Shown here: positions 52,037 through 57,156 of the stretch, piece after piece
Numbering within the stretch: the first letter of the stretch is position 1
Layout: the number at the start of each line of letters is the position of its first letter
Assembly (NCBI RefSeq): GCF_031624495.1
Contig: NZ_JAMQOP010000001.1
Span: forward strand, 1,550,001 to 1,614,000
Reading direction: 5' to 3'
Length of the DNA stretch: 64,000 nt
From: Halogeometricum sp. S1BR25-6
Lineage (GTDB): Archaea > Halobacteriota > Halobacteria > Halobacteriales > Haloferacaceae
Program-made: the position numbers and the translations under genes
The notes under the pieces: generated by a model
Told to the model about the DNA's origin: nothing
Database searches by the model: none
Seen by the model: the letters and a program-made list of their open reading frames with translations, nothing else

Positions 52037-53017
52037 TCACCCCTCCCAAGACTCGAAGTCGCCGTAGATACCCTTCGAGAGGTACCGCTCCCCGGAGTCG
52101 GGAAACACCGTAGCGACCGAGTCGTAGGGCGCGTCCACCTCCCCGTCGCGGATTCGCTCGGCCACGTCGCGCGCGGCGAGACTCGCCGCGGCGGCGGAGG
52201 AGGCGACGAGGTGACCCTCCTCGCGGGCGAGTCGCTGAACCTCCGTATGCGCGTCGCGGTCGGCTATCTGTACGACTTCGTCGACGAGTTCGGGGTCGAA
52301 CAGTTCGTTGGTCGCCGGGTCGTGCGTGCCGATGCCCTCCGTCTTGTAGGCGTCCTCTTCGACGTCTTCCCCTTCGAGCGTCGCGTACAGCGACCCCTCC
52401 GGTTCGACGGCGACGACTCGGGTGTCGGAGTCCCGTTCGAGGGCGTACTTCGCGATGCCCATGAGCGTCCCCGCTGTGCCGCACCCGGCGACGACGGCGC
52501 CCACCTCGCCGTCGAGGGCGTCGTACATCTCGGGACCGGTGGTCGCGTAGTGCGCCTCGACGTTCAGGGGGTTCGAGAACTGCTGGGGGACGACGGCGTC
52601 GTCCGTCTCCGCGGCGACGGCGTGCGCCCGGTCGATGGCGCCGCCCATGCCATCCTCGCTGGGCGTGTTGATGACCGTCGCGCCGAGGGCGCGCATGAGT
52701 TGCTGTTTCTCGACGCTGAAGCGTTCGGGAACGACGAACACCGCCTCGATACCGAGTTGCCCGGCCGCGACGGCGAAACCGATGCCGGTGTTGCCGGCCG
52801 TCGGTTCGACGATGGTGCCGCCCTCGGGGAGCGTCCCGTCTTCGAGCATGCGTTCGAGCATGTACTTCCCGATGCGGTCCTTGACGCTCGCGCCGGGGTT
52901 GAACGACTCGAGTTTGGCGTAGACGGGCACCTCGTCGGGGGAAGCCTGAACGCGGACGAGGGGGGTCTCGCCGACGGTGTCGAGGACCGAGGCGAGCGGT
53001 TCCCGGTGCGTTGTCAT
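52037..53017 (-). CDS. cysK: cysteine synthase family protein (PLP-dependent)
   Basis: A 326-residue fold-type II PLP enzyme. The PLP lysine is in NPGASVKDRIG (about residue 43), the substrate loop is EPTAGNTGIGF (about 68-78) with TAGNTG replacing the more common TSGNTG, and the phosphate loop is AGCGTAGTLMG (about 175). It makes cysteine from O-acetylserine (or O-phosphoserine/ cystathionine-type donors) and sulfide; cystathionine beta-synthase-like activity cannot be excluded. ATG at 53017. It lies about 800 bases from the sirohaem reductase gene, which suits supply of sulfide. Confidence 0.88.
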   Translation of the reverse strand: MTTHREPLASVLDTVGETPLVRVQASPDEVPVYAKLESFNPGASVKDRIGKYMLERMLEDGTLPEGGTIVEPTAGNTGIGFAVAAGQLGIEAVFVVPERFSVEKQQLMRALGATVINTPSEDGMGGAIDRAHAVAAETDDAVVPQQFSNPLNVEAHYATTGPEMYDALDGEVGAVVAGCGTAGTLMGIAKYALERDSDTRVVAVEPEGSLYATLEGEDVEEDAYKTEGIGTHDPATNELFDPELVDEVVQIADRDAHTEVQRLAREEGHLVASSAAAASLAARDVAERIRDGEVDAPYDSVATVFPDSGERYLSKGIYGDFESWEG

Positions 53018-53122
53018 GCGCTGGCAAATGTTGCCCCAGTACCTCAAAGTTCCCATCCGGCTGTCGGACGGCGCGTCCGCTGGCGGGCGTCGGTCGTCCG
53101 ACCGGGAAAAGTGGTTCGGCGG

Positions 53123-53491
53123 TCAGTTCGAGTTGTTCGCGCCCGCGGCGTCGTCCTCGTCGACGGGTATCTCCGAATCCGTCCCGGCGTCCGTCGCCGC
53201 CTCGTCGGTCAGGTCGTCGCTGGCGGCGTCCGACCCGGCCGTCTCCGCCTCGGCGATATGGGCGTTGGCGGTGACGCTCTCGACGTCGATGCCCTCATGC
53301 TCCGCGAGAGCCTCCAGCAGGGCGCGCTGCTCGGCGTTCTCGACTTCGAGTCGGTCCACGCGCGCCTTCGTCGCCTGCGTCGTCTTGCGCATCTCCGCGA
53401 GTTGGTCGCGCAGTTCGTTCAGTCGAGCGTACACGTCTTCGGCCATCTCGGCCACTTTCTGGAGCTTCTTCGCCGTCCCTCCGATTCCCAT
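53123..53491 (-). CDS. coiled-coil acidic protein (DUF5798-like)
   Basis: A 122-residue protein. MGIGGTAKKLQKVAEMAEDVYARLNELRDQ opens a continuous coiled coil (residues 5-65) with heptad Leu/Val, followed by an Ala/Asp/Thr-rich acidic tail. This matches what I recall of haloarchaeal DUF5798. Function unknown; a scaffolding role is likely from the coil. ATG at 53491 is preferred over a longer frame with an unlikely leader. Upstream of cysteine synthase on the same strand. Confidence 0.75.
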   Translation of the reverse strand: MGIGGTAKKLQKVAEMAEDVYARLNELRDQLAEMRKTTQATKARVDRLEVENAEQRALLEALAEHEGIDVESVTANAHIAEAETAGSDAASDDLTDEAATDAGTDSEIPVDEDDAAGANNSN

Positions 53492-53834
53492 GCACGGGGG
53501 TGCGCACTCCGGGCTTGTGTGCGTTCCGCTTTCGGCGACTCCCGGGGCGGGAGTCGACGCGTGACGGCCTTCAACCTCCGCGTCACCGCAGGACGCGTCT
53601 CGCAAATAGACGAATTCCCGGTAATATTCTCTCCTATCTTGGACAGAGAATGACACACACTTTTTGGTATCTCGGTCGGCGTCGGGCGTTCTCTGAGGGC
53701 GTTCTCGACCGAGTCGCGTCGTAGGTGAACCCGCTATGCCCCCGCTAGTTCGGAGCAGAGGCAGGACTGGCGGCGACGGCCGGTTCCTTGTGTGTCACCG
53801 ACGACCGTGATATACTCTCGCTCGGGAGGACATT
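53492..53834. other. divergent promoter region
   Basis: 343 bases without a supported gene, between the DUF5798-like gene and the sirohaem reductase. A low-GC stretch (AATAGACGAATTCCCGGTAATATTCTC, 53607-53633) may hold the promoter for the minus-strand gene, and GATATAC at 53809-53815 with a GGAGGA ribosome site at 53825-53830 serves the plus-strand gene. Confidence 0.45.
53809..53830 (+). promoter_or_regulatory. TATA-like element and ribosome-binding site for the sirohaem reductase
   Basis: GATATAC (53809-53815) followed by GGAGGA (53825-53830), four bases before the ATG at 53835. A good ribosome site is uncommon before first genes in haloarchaea and suggests a leadered mRNA, with the real TATA box perhaps farther upstream. 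Confidence 0.4.
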
Positions 53835-55541
53835 ATGAACACGGTAGAACGATGGAAACAGGAGAAACACCCCCTCGACGTCGTCGACGACGTCCGCGAG
53901 TACGCCGCGGAGGGACTCACGTTCGAGGAGATAGAGCGACGCGCCGGCGACGGCGAGCGGGAACGCCTCAAGTGGGCCGGGATGTACGCCCACGGCCGGC
54001 AGGAGGGCTACTTCATGCTCCGGACGAAGGTGCCCGGCGGCCGCCTCACGCCCGACCAGGCCGAGGTCATCGGCGAGGTTGCCGACGAGTTCGCCGTCGC
54101 GCCCGACGAACACGGCGGCGAGGAGCAAAACGAGATATGGGGCGACGCCTACCTCGATATCACGACCAGACAGGACGTGCAGATGCACTGGATACGGGTC
54201 GAGGACGTGCCGGAGATATGGGACCGGTACGACGAGATCGGCCTGACGACGATTCAGGGCTGCGGCGACGGCGCGCGCAACGTCCTCGGCTGTCCCGCCG
54301 CCGGACTGACCGACCACGAGTGCTTCGACGCCCAACCCGTCGTCGACGCCGTCTCGGAGTACTTCACCGGCAACCGAGAGTACGCGAACCTCCCGCGGAA
54401 ATTTAAAATGACTATCACGGGCTGCCGGGAGGACTGCGCGCAGTCGCAGATAAACGACGTCGGCCTCGTTCCGGCGCGCAGGGAGGCGGACGGGGGAGAC
54501 GTCTACGGATTCCACGTCCGCGTCGGCGGCGGTCTCTCGGACGGCCCGCGGATGGCCTCGAACCTCGACGTCTTCGTCCGCCCCGAGGACGCCGTCGAGT
54601 TCTGCCGCGCCGTCGCGCAGACGTTCAAGGAACTCGGCGACCGGAACAACCGCGGCGTCTGTCGGATGCGCTATCTCGTCGAGCAGATGGGACCGGGAGC
54701 GTTCGAGACGGCCGTCCGCGACCGGTGCGACGCCGACCTGCCGTCGCGCGGGACCGACCTCACGCGCGGCTACGCGGGCGACCACGTCGGCGTGCGCGAA
54801 CAGAAGACCGATGGCCTCCACTACGTCGGGTTCAACGTGATAGCGGGTCGGATGGGCGGCGACGAGTTCGTCGCGGCCGCCCGCGCCGCGCGGGAGTACG
54901 GCACCGACGAGAGCACCGTCCGCCTCGCCACCGACCAGAACTTCCTCGTCACGCACGTCCCGAAGGAGAACCTCTCGGACCTCCTGAACGAGCCGTTCGC
55001 CCGGAAGTACGAACACGACCCCGGACCGTTCGCCCGCGGCGCCGTCGGGTGCACCGGGTCGGAGTTCTGCAACTACGGCATCATCGAGACCAAAAATCGG
55101 GTGTACCGCTGGGCGAAGGCGCTCGACCGGCGGATAGAGACGCCCGCGGACCTCGACGTCGTCCGGATGCACATGTCGGGATGTTCGGCGTCGTGTGCCC
55201 AACCGCAGATAGCCGACATCGGCTTCCGCGGCGAGACGGTGCAGGTGGACGACCCCGAGGAGACGACGAACGACGAGGGCGACGCGGTCGTCGAGGGGAT
55301 GGACGTCGGCCTCGGCGGCTCCTTGGGGGCGGACAACGAGTTTCTCGACTGGGTGGAGGGCGCCGTCCCCGCCCGCGCCGTGATTCCCGCGCTCGAACGG
55401 TTGTTCGCGGCGTTCGCTGACGAACGCGACGACGGCGAACGATTCTACGAGTGGACCCGGAGGGTGGAGAACGACCGCCTGCGGACCGTGATGCGGGAGG
55501 CGGACGCGAACGTCTCGGGAGGTGTCGCGCATGGGGACTAA
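53835..55541 (+). CDS. ferredoxin-type sirohaem nitrite/sulfite reductase
   Basis: A 568-residue sirohaem and [4Fe-4S] enzyme that makes a six-electron reduction of nitrite to ammonia or sulfite to sulfide. Two ferredoxin-like half domains are present (FMLRTKVPGGRLTPDQ near residue 55; GLHYVGFNVIAGRMGG near 332), with repeated sirohaem-binding segments. Cluster ligands are CTGSEFC (about residues 406-412, Cx5C) and CSASC (about 449-453, Cx3C). Sulfite versus nitrite is not decided by motif; the nearby cysteine synthase and absence of nitrate genes favour sulfite, while annotation elsewhere usually says nitrite. The stop overlaps the next gene's start region by 11 bases, so the pair is coupled. 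Strong ribosome site before the ATG. Confidence 0.9.
   Translation: MNTVERWKQEKHPLDVVDDVREYAAEGLTFEEIERRAGDGERERLKWAGMYAHGRQEGYFMLRTKVPGGRLTPDQAEVIGEVADEFAVAPDEHGGEEQNEIWGDAYLDITTRQDVQMHWIRVEDVPEIWDRYDEIGLTTIQGCGDGARNVLGCPAAGLTDHECFDAQPVVDAVSEYFTGNREYANLPRKFKMTITGCREDCAQSQINDVGLVPARREADGGDVYGFHVRVGGGLSDGPRMASNLDVFVRPEDAVEFCRAVAQTFKELGDRNNRGVCRMRYLVEQMGPGAFETAVRDRCDADLPSRGTDLTRGYAGDHVGVREQKTDGLHYVGFNVIAGRMGGDEFVAAARAAREYGTDESTVRLATDQNFLVTHVPKENLSDLLNEPFARKYEHDPGPFARGAVGCTGSEFCNYGIIETKNRVYRWAKALDRRIETPADLDVVRMHMSGCSASCAQPQIADIGFRGETVQVDDPEETTNDEGDAVVEGMDVGLGGSLGADNEFLDWVEGAVPARAVIPALERLFAAFADERDDGERFYEWTRRVENDRLRTVMREADANVSGGVAHGD
55518..55524 (+). promoter_or_regulatory. Shine-Dalgarno site deciding the FrhB start
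   Basis: GGAGGTG inside the end of the sirohaem reductase gene, six bases before the ATG at 55531. It favours this ATG over GTG at 55522 and shows coupled translation. Confidence 0.65.
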
Positions 55542-57156
55542 CGGAAGCGAGCGGCGACTCCCACACGTGCCCGATACGGGCGGCGACGTCGAGGAGACGG
55601 GCGTTCCGCCGGTGAGCGGCGGGGACGGCGGGCGGGCGTCGCGCTCCCGCGACGGCGATGTGAGGCTCATCACGTATCACAGGCGGGACGCGGACGGCCG
55701 GGAGGAAGGAAGAACCGATGGGGACCCCGAAACGGGCGACTGCGGGTGCGGCGGATGCACCTGCGGGTCCGGAGACGACGCCGGGGACGAGGCCGTTTCC
55801 GACGGCGGTACCCGTCCCTCGAACGTCGACGCCGACGGGAACCTCACGGACCTGACCTTCACCGAACCCGCGGCGGAAAAGAGTCAGGACGTGTACGACG
55901 ACGCCCCCGACAGGCGGGTACAGGTGCCCGACGGCGTCGAGTTGGACACGCCCGGCTACTCCATCCGGCGGGAGATGAGCGACGTCGAGGAACCGGACGG
56001 GAAGACGTGGTTCATGGAACTCGACGCGGCGGTCATCGACGAGGGACGGTGCATCCAGTGCGGCACCTGCGTCGCCTCCTGCCCCTCGGACTCCATCGGC
56101 ATCGGCGACGACGGCCTACCGGAGTTGGTGAAGATGTGCACCGGGTGTTCGCTCTGCTGGGACTTCTGCCCGCGCGGCGGCCTGCGGTACGAGCGCCAGT
56201 GGAAGATAACGGGCGGCGAGGACAACGTGAAGGGGGCCGGCGACCCCATCACGGAGTTCTCCGCGCGCGTCAAGGAGGAGTGGCGCGGGAACGCACAGGA
56301 CGGCGGCGTCGTCACCTCGGTGTTGATACACCTGCTCGAAGCCGGCGAGATAGACGGCGCCTTGGTCGCCACCGAGTCCGATGAGGAGCCCTGGAAGGCG
56401 GAATCGTTCCTCGCGACGACGCCCGCGGAGCTAATCGAGAGCGCCGGGAGCTTCTACAACCAGACGATGGCGCTCGGAAACCTCGACGTCGAGCGGTGGG
56501 AGGAGAAACTCCCCGACAAGTCGCCCGAGGACCTCTCTTTGGCCCTCGTCGGGACGCCCTGCGAGATAGAGGGCATCCGCGCGCTACAGGACTTTGGGTG
56601 GGACTACGCGAGTCAGGAGGACGGCGTCCGCGCGATAGACTACACCATCGCGCTGATGTGCACGAAGAACTTCAACTACCACCGGCTCATCGGCGAGCAG
56701 TTGGCGGAAAAGCGGGACCTACCGCCCGAGGACATCGGCAAGTTGGACGTGCTCGACGGGAAGCTGATGGCGTACGACCACGACGGCCGGATGATTCTGG
56801 AGGAGGACGTCGAGGCGTTCCACGGCGCGGCGCTGAAGGGCTGCGACGAGTGCGCGGACTTCACGGGCTACTGCGCGGACCTGACCGTCGGTTCCGTCGG
56901 GTCGAGCGACGAGTACTCCAGCGTCATCGTCCGGACGGAGCGGGGGATGGAGGCGTGGGAACTGACGGAACCGGACCTCGACTACCACGACTTAGAAGAC
57001 AAATCGGCCGTCGGCGGCCTGCAGTCGTGGGACAAAAAGCGAGCGTTCGAGGCGCTGCAGCGTCCGTTCGACCCGGACGCGCCGCGGTTCATCGAGTACG
57101 AGGACCACGCCGAGAACTACGGGACGACCCTGCGCGCCCACGAGTCGGACCACTGA
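55531..57156 (+). CDS. FrhB-like coenzyme F420 hydrogenase/dehydrogenase beta subunit
   Basis: A 541-residue iron-sulfur flavoprotein. Residues 1-160 are a haloarchaeal extension with a CGCGGCTC cluster (Cys71, 73, 76, 78). Two [4Fe-4S] motifs follow: C174-x2-C177-x2-C180-x3-C184 and C203-x2-C206-x2-C209-x3-C213. The FrhB/FpoF N- and C-terminal domains occupy about 225-540, with VGTPCEIEGIRALQ and MCTKNFNYH as typical segments, plus a further Cys pair (CDECADFTGYC). FrhB/FpoF proteins oxidise or reduce F420 with FAD. ATG at 55531 is set by GGAGGTG at 55518-55524. It overlaps the sirohaem reductase frame, suggesting it hands F420H2 electrons to it. Confidence 0.9.
   Translation: MGTNGSERRLPHVPDTGGDVEETGVPPVSGGDGGRASRSRDGDVRLITYHRRDADGREEGRTDGDPETGDCGCGGCTCGSGDDAGDEAVSDGGTRPSNVDADGNLTDLTFTEPAAEKSQDVYDDAPDRRVQVPDGVELDTPGYSIRREMSDVEEPDGKTWFMELDAAVIDEGRCIQCGTCVASCPSDSIGIGDDGLPELVKMCTGCSLCWDFCPRGGLRYERQWKITGGEDNVKGAGDPITEFSARVKEEWRGNAQDGGVVTSVLIHLLEAGEIDGALVATESDEEPWKAESFLATTPAELIESAGSFYNQTMALGNLDVERWEEKLPDKSPEDLSLALVGTPCEIEGIRALQDFGWDYASQEDGVRAIDYTIALMCTKNFNYHRLIGEQLAEKRDLPPEDIGKLDVLDGKLMAYDHDGRMILEEDVEAFHGAALKGCDECADFTGYCADLTVGSVGSSDEYSSVIVRTERGMEAWELTEPDLDYHDLEDKSAVGGLQSWDKKRAFEALQRPFDPDAPRFIEYEDHAENYGTTLRAHESDH

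Follow-up and report, generated by a model that had tools for sequence, protein, structure and literature searches.

We analyzed a gene pair within a 64,000-nucleotide (nt) stretch of the Halogeometricum sp. S1BR25-6 genome (contig NZ_JAMQOP010000001.1 of assembly GCF_031624495.1, positions 1,550,001 to 1,614,000; hereafter the window) and found it to be conserved, as a unit with translational overlap, in certain, though not all, haloarchaea. The pair probably encodes aFsr, a two-subunit F420H2-dependent sirohaem sulfite reductase of the assimilatory type, as judged from sequence and structure comparisons. An F420-coupled sulfite reductase had been read from the letters of the window beforehand (the original prediction), and this reading is supported by the present analysis. 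The idea is an already published one and is not new. Susanti and Mukhopadhyay (2012; PMC3448663) predicted a haloarchaeal aFsr composed of aFsr-alpha, of the aSir type, and aFsr-beta, a homologue of the N-terminal half of F420-dependent sulfite reductase (Fsr), and listed Halogeometricum borinquense, Halorhabdus utahensis, Halalkalicoccus jeotgali and Haloterrigena turkmenica as carriers of aFsr-beta; the enzyme was still termed putative in 2022 (PMC9295563). The window pair has the same two subunits, lineage and proposed function, namely an aSir-type reductase and an FrhB protein with two N-terminal ferredoxin [4Fe-4S] motifs, encoded by linked genes in a haloarchaeon, and nothing was found to set the pair itself apart from the published aFsr. 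What the present analysis adds is the scale of conservation, a test of the substrate-discriminating residue, the genome profile, the overlap of the two frames and a sister class with fused rhodanese domains.

Conservation of the pair was examined in three genome samples. Among named genomes, 205 relatives of the FrhB-like protein were confirmed. Locus counts are based on the 80 best loci, and in 79 of these 80 haloarchaeal loci a reductase gene was found directly upstream on the same strand. When 296 genomes of the phylum were searched independently with the beta core alone, all 13 aFsr-beta copies adjoined aFsr-alpha by coordinates, as did all five copies of the sister class described below with their own reductase; no beta-core match at 1e-80 was detected in these genomes beyond the order to which the window belongs. 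In a class-wide draw of 145 haloarchaeal genomes, an aFsr-alpha orthologue (74-100% identity) was present in 39. Thus, adjacency of the two genes, which had been proposed as a point to check, is conserved across haloarchaea. The sole exception among the 80 loci is an aFsr-beta-like protein (L079:9971-11386, 73% identical) without an adjoining reductase gene; its genome, Halobacteriales archaeon YIM A00010, also holds a normal pair (L064).

The two overlapping reading frames were present where they had been placed (Table 1). The claim that the second gene has its own Shine-Dalgarno (SD) site inside the first was upheld, with the SD-like sequence GGGAGGTG located near the end of aFsr-alpha. The listed start of the second gene, GTG 55522, falls within this SD-like sequence and was replaced by ATG 55531, six nt past it. 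An overlap of 11 nt, which here (ATGGGGACTAA) comprises the aFsr-beta start and the aFsr-alpha stop, was found in 45 of 79 loci and an overlap of 8 nt in a further 33 (78 of 79 together). An SD-like site preceded the overlapping beta start in 46 of the 79 loci, compared to 8.9% of background windows. Since the overlap size is near-constant and SD-like sites are enriched over background, this arrangement is not attributable to chance.

As had been proposed, the first gene was found to encode a reductase of the ferredoxin-type nitrite/sulfite family. By Pfam, aFsr-alpha has a duplicated architecture of two NIR_SIR and two NIR_SIR_ferr halves. Among solved structures it is closest to spinach nitrite reductase (2akj, E 2e-80), tobacco nitrite reductase and Mycobacterium tuberculosis NirA; Fsr is a weak match, with its C-terminal half related at a distance (E 1e-8). 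An AlphaFold2 model of aFsr-alpha (predicted local distance difference test, pLDDT, 88; predicted TM-score, pTM, 0.90) superposed over its full length on NirA and plant nitrite reductase (NiR) by Foldseek (TMq 0.81-0.84), whereas one repeat alone superposed on Fsr (TMq 0.37). The cluster ligands C406, C412, C450 and C454 are conserved, as are the anion ligands R63, R148, K189 and K191. Sirohaem reductases bind the anion by two arginines and two lysines, which in Fsr are R355, R423, K460 and K462 (PMC10229431). Against the NCBIfam equivalog for ferredoxin--nitrite reductase (PRK09566), aFsr-alpha scored 381.5 bits, under the 594-bit cut-off. Four N-half cysteines (C143, C153, C197 and C201; window 54261-54437) are also invariant, and C143, C197 and C201 occupy positions pseudo-symmetric to catalytic-cluster ligands. 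An N-half [4Fe-4S] site as an electron port specific to aFsr was considered and rejected, as C153, C197 and C201 are common to nearly all haloarchaeal NIR_SIR groups; a second cluster may be suggested by these shared cysteines.

The second gene likewise proved to be FrhB/FpoF-like with two [4Fe-4S] motifs, as originally described. The aFsr-beta protein contains FrhB_FdhB_N and FrhB_FdhB_C domains together with a 4Fe-4S dicluster domain (Pfam), and its best solved relatives are a subunit of F420-reducing carbon monoxide dehydrogenase (CODH; 8riu_B, E 3e-40) and Fsr (7np8, E 2e-36). Each of the 81 orthologues retains all 12 cluster cysteines: the eight of the ferredoxin-type motifs (C174/177/180/184 and C203/206/209/213) and the four of the FrhB-type cluster (C344, C377, C438 and C441). 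Fold comparison gave 8riu_B, Fsr and Frh as the best matches; the underlying model is of low confidence (pLDDT 57) and these matches are merely supportive. The original prediction had made retention of the residues for F420 and flavin adenine dinucleotide (FAD) a point on which it could fail. The cluster cysteines and the FAD-region motifs found in F420-active relatives were kept, and the residues of the F420-phosphate loop were kept in part. This loop reads IGKGK in FrhB (residue 163 onward; PMC3591093), VLDGK here, and varies between orthologues with its lysines partly kept; the F420-active 8riu also deviates (IGEGK). The N-terminal tail of aFsr-beta is long and probably disordered, as suggested by the model. 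A cysteine motif in this tail was found in 69 of 81 orthologues, in the form CGCGGCTC here and CSPxTCTCGE or CGCGxxCGCG in others. A PxVP motif usually lies close to the start of the tail, and the tail is absent from about a dozen orthologues and from the rhodanese-fused class.

F420H2 is very likely the electron donor of aFsr. This assignment is by family alone, since it rests on the nearest relatives of aFsr-beta, the 12 invariant cysteines and the universal presence of CofD. The nearest solved relatives, by both sequence and fold, are F420-active enzymes, ahead of plant 7-hydroxymethyl chlorophyll a reductase (HCAR, 5dqr), whose fold match was weaker (E 1.7e-14 vs 1.5e-20). CofD was found in 145 of 145 haloarchaeal genomes, in agreement with the earlier statement that haloarchaea make F420. 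In the proposed mechanism, a hydride from F420H2 would be transferred to FAD in aFsr-beta, from which single electrons would pass through the FrhB-type [4Fe-4S] cluster of this subunit to its two ferredoxin-type clusters. The N-terminal part of aFsr-beta that bears these clusters would dock on aFsr-alpha, and electrons would move on to the sirohaem-bridged [4Fe-4S] cluster (C406, C412, C450 and C454). Sulfite held by R63, R148, K189 and K191 would undergo six-electron reduction to sulfide for cysteine synthesis, with the overlapping frames keeping the two subunits stoichiometric.

Sulfite is likely the main substrate of aFsr, as indicated by residue, genome and clade comparisons. In plant NiR the position of the second anion-binding lysine is occupied by Asn226, and residue 226 of the tobacco enzyme reportedly tunes preference for nitrite versus sulfite. 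The equivalent residue of aFsr-alpha is K191. Lys occupies this position in all 78 aligned orthologues, in 7 of 7 reductases of the rhodanese-fused class and in 8 of 8 of the parC class, as it does in the tobacco N226K variant (PDB 3vlx) and M. tuberculosis NirA. By contrast, all three reductases that adjoin NasA (NasD) have Asn, including the window genome's own (G000:C1:804 kb), so that a separate nitrite-type enzyme sits in the nitrate-assimilation neighbourhood of this genome. When strong NIR_SIR matches were defined by E <= 1e-60, aFsr was the sole match of this strength in seven genomes (G039, G043, G064, G071, G092, G107 and G136), and NasA was missing from all of these except G107. Overall, NasA was found in 29 of the 39 aFsr genomes and missing from ten. 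The Lys191 site, the aFsr genomes without NasA and the rhodanese-fused sister class favour sulfite, although they are not proof. The parC class is a widespread Lys-type reductase of haloarchaea and the third sirohaem reductase of the window genome (G000:C2:895887-897512; L088, L124); this copy has no obvious partner gene and is without the N-half cysteines C153, C197 and C201 present in other members.

The sister class was identified in seven genomes (G117, G005, G132, G099, G129, G033 and G140) and carries two N-terminal rhodanese domains fused to the reductase, the second of which has a Cys at the usual active-site place (YCNTARRLSHT). The reductase is 44-53% identical to aFsr-alpha. An FrhB-type gene begins within a few nt downstream, and its product (about 411-423 aa) is 42-48% identical to aFsr-beta. 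Tree analysis grouped aFsr and the rhodanese-fused class in a clade (support 1.0) that excluded the NasA-linked and parC classes, neither of which has an FrhB-type neighbour; monophyly of aFsr itself was weakly supported (0.57). Nineteen rhodanese-NirA fusions of Halobacteria were noted in PMC11237513, and an FrhB-type partner is not mentioned in its account of these fusions. Because a sulfurtransferase is fused to the sister-class reductase, the F420-coupled clade as a whole most likely centres on sulfur chemistry. More tentatively, a larger family of haloarchaeal reductases that use F420H2 on sulfur oxyanions may exist, with aFsr as one branch and the sister class as another that could convert thiosulfate to sulfide in a single F420H2-driven complex. 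In such an enzyme, sulfite freed by the rhodanese domains from thiosulfate, or from some other sulfane carrier, would pass to the sirohaem site of their own polypeptide, with electrons supplied by the adjoining FrhB-type subunit.

Several findings weigh against the assignment of aFsr as an F420H2-dependent sulfite reductase and were considered together with the alternatives. With the same wiring, the pair could serve mainly to reduce nitrite to ammonium, either to assimilate nitrogen or to detoxify nitrite. Pairing with an FrhB-type protein does not fix the substrate, because the F420-dependent FsrII of anaerobic methanotrophic archaea reduces nitrite and not sulfite (PMC9295563) and MjFsr is described as reducing nitrite too (PMC10202398). 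In addition, aFsr-alpha falls within the fold and model space of ferredoxin-nitrite reductases, three quarters of the aFsr genomes have NasA, and in G107, which has NasA, aFsr is the only sirohaem reductase listed. Nitrite as the main substrate is nonetheless improbable given the Asn-bearing NIR_SIR protein that adjoins NasA in the window genome, the aFsr genomes without NasA, in six of which no sirohaem reductase other than aFsr gave a strong match, and the sulfurtransferase domains of the sister clade. Another sulfur oxyanion as substrate, or sulfite detoxification as the principal role in place of biosynthesis, appears unlikely but is favoured by two observations. An ATP sulfurylase of the PF01747 type was not found in the window genome, a finding that also counts against the main assignment, and the parC reductase, a second Lys-type enzyme present in most genomes, could cover biosynthesis. 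In the six genomes without NasA where aFsr alone gave a strong match, biosynthesis would also be its job, if sulfite is used at all.

HCAR shows that an FrhB-type fold can serve a non-F420 enzyme, and its match to aFsr-beta means that this fold need not imply F420. The beta subunit might accordingly draw on ferredoxin in an HCAR-like manner, or act as an Fe-S/flavin buffer, in which case the pair would be a sulfite reductase that depends on ferredoxin and has an additional subunit. The resemblance of aFsr-alpha to ferredoxin-dependent NirA and sulfite reductase (SiR) and the poor conservation of the F420-loop lysines (the GKGK of FrhB), which is poorer still in the rhodanese-fused class, are in line with this explanation. 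It is considered quite improbable, as the closest relatives of aFsr-beta are solved F420 oxidoreductases, F420 biosynthesis occurs throughout the class, and the parC and NasD paralogues of the same genome do without an FrhB neighbour, such that a specific coupling is expected for aFsr. F420H2-dependent sulfite reduction must further be set against two negative results: conserved sulfur (or nitrogen) genes flanking the pair were looked for across the loci and none were found, and the literature searched contained no enzymatic or genetic test of aFsr.

Compared to known systems, aFsr combines parts that occur elsewhere with other partners. Group I Fsr (Methanocaldococcus 7np8, Methanothermococcus 7npa) has an F420H2-oxidase half matched by aFsr-beta and anion ligands of the same type as aFsr-alpha (Arg, Arg, Lys, Lys). 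It is a single polypeptide with the oxidase half ahead of a half of the dissimilatory sulfite reductase (Dsr) type, whereas aFsr consists of two proteins encoded in reverse order with a two-repeat NirA/SiR architecture in aFsr-alpha; the split, reversed and assimilatory character originally ascribed to the pair was thus confirmed. Spinach and tobacco NiR and M. tuberculosis NirA (1zj8) are homologous to aFsr-alpha over its full length and share its fold and cofactor ligands, and aFsr-alpha differs from these ferredoxin-dependent enzymes in its dedicated FrhB-type partner gene and in Lys for Asn at NiR N226. The ferredoxin and F420-oxidoreductase domains of aFsr-beta are found in the CODH zeta subunit/FwdI of ethanotrophs (8riu, 8rja), FpoF/FqoF and FrhB, which serve other catalytic partners and differ from aFsr-beta with its long haloarchaeal tail; HCAR has the FrhB-type fold in common. 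A 2021 review (PMC8305020) counted a single F420-dependent reaction in halophilic archaea and regarded the role of the cofactor as enigmatic. The aFsr pair is a concrete, conserved and genetically accessible candidate for a second. If so, F420 coupling of sirohaem reductases would have arisen with two architectures, Dsr-like in methanogens and NirA-like in haloarchaea, and the rhodanese-fused class would point to further sulfur chemistry.

Table 1. Features of the aFsr locus, with a sister-class example (window positions unless a locus is given)
Feature	Position	Strand	Basis or remark
aFsr-alpha, sirohaem-[4Fe-4S] assimilatory-type reductase, 568 aa	53835..55541	+	ATG start
aFsr-beta, FrhB/FpoF-type predicted F420H2-oxidising flavoprotein, 541 aa	55531..57156	+	Pfam, Cys conservation, Foldseek
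SD-like site for aFsr-beta, inside aFsr-alpha	55517..55524	+	sequence
11-nt overlap of the two genes	55531..55541	+	
Codons of K189-F190-K191, substrate-discriminating stretch (K191 aligned with tobacco NiR N226)	54399..54407	+	alignment
N-terminal tail of aFsr-beta, PxVP and Cys motifs	55531..55815	+	pLDDT < 50, residues 1-95
Two ferredoxin-type [4Fe-4S] motifs of aFsr-beta	56050..56169	+	alignment
Cysteine synthase	52037..53056	-	~0.8 kb upstream of pair
DUF5798 gene	53123..53656	-	between cysteine synthase and pair
Sister-class pair, example	L103:2855-5260 (reductase), L103:1583-2854 (FrhB-type)	-	loci L102-L108

The nearby cysteine synthase gene had been taken to favour sulfite, and this argument was not retained: the gene lies on the opposite strand, the DUF5798 gene intervenes, and proximity to the pair was found solely in the closest relative, H. 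pallidum (L007). At one other locus (L010), a relative of this cysteine synthase (34% identical) lies downstream of the pair. The commonest neighbours, present at about half of the loci, appear housekeeping-like by their sequences alone, among them an SRP54-like protein. The sulfate-assimilation profile was set aside as uninformative on the substrate, with PF01747 rare (3 of 145 haloarchaea) and PF01507 matches weak and ambiguous. Elsewhere in the window genome, two tandem CysD/PAPS-reductase-like proteins (L122:4284-6358; G000:C1:1147-1149 kb) are encoded beside a diphthine--ammonia ligase gene.

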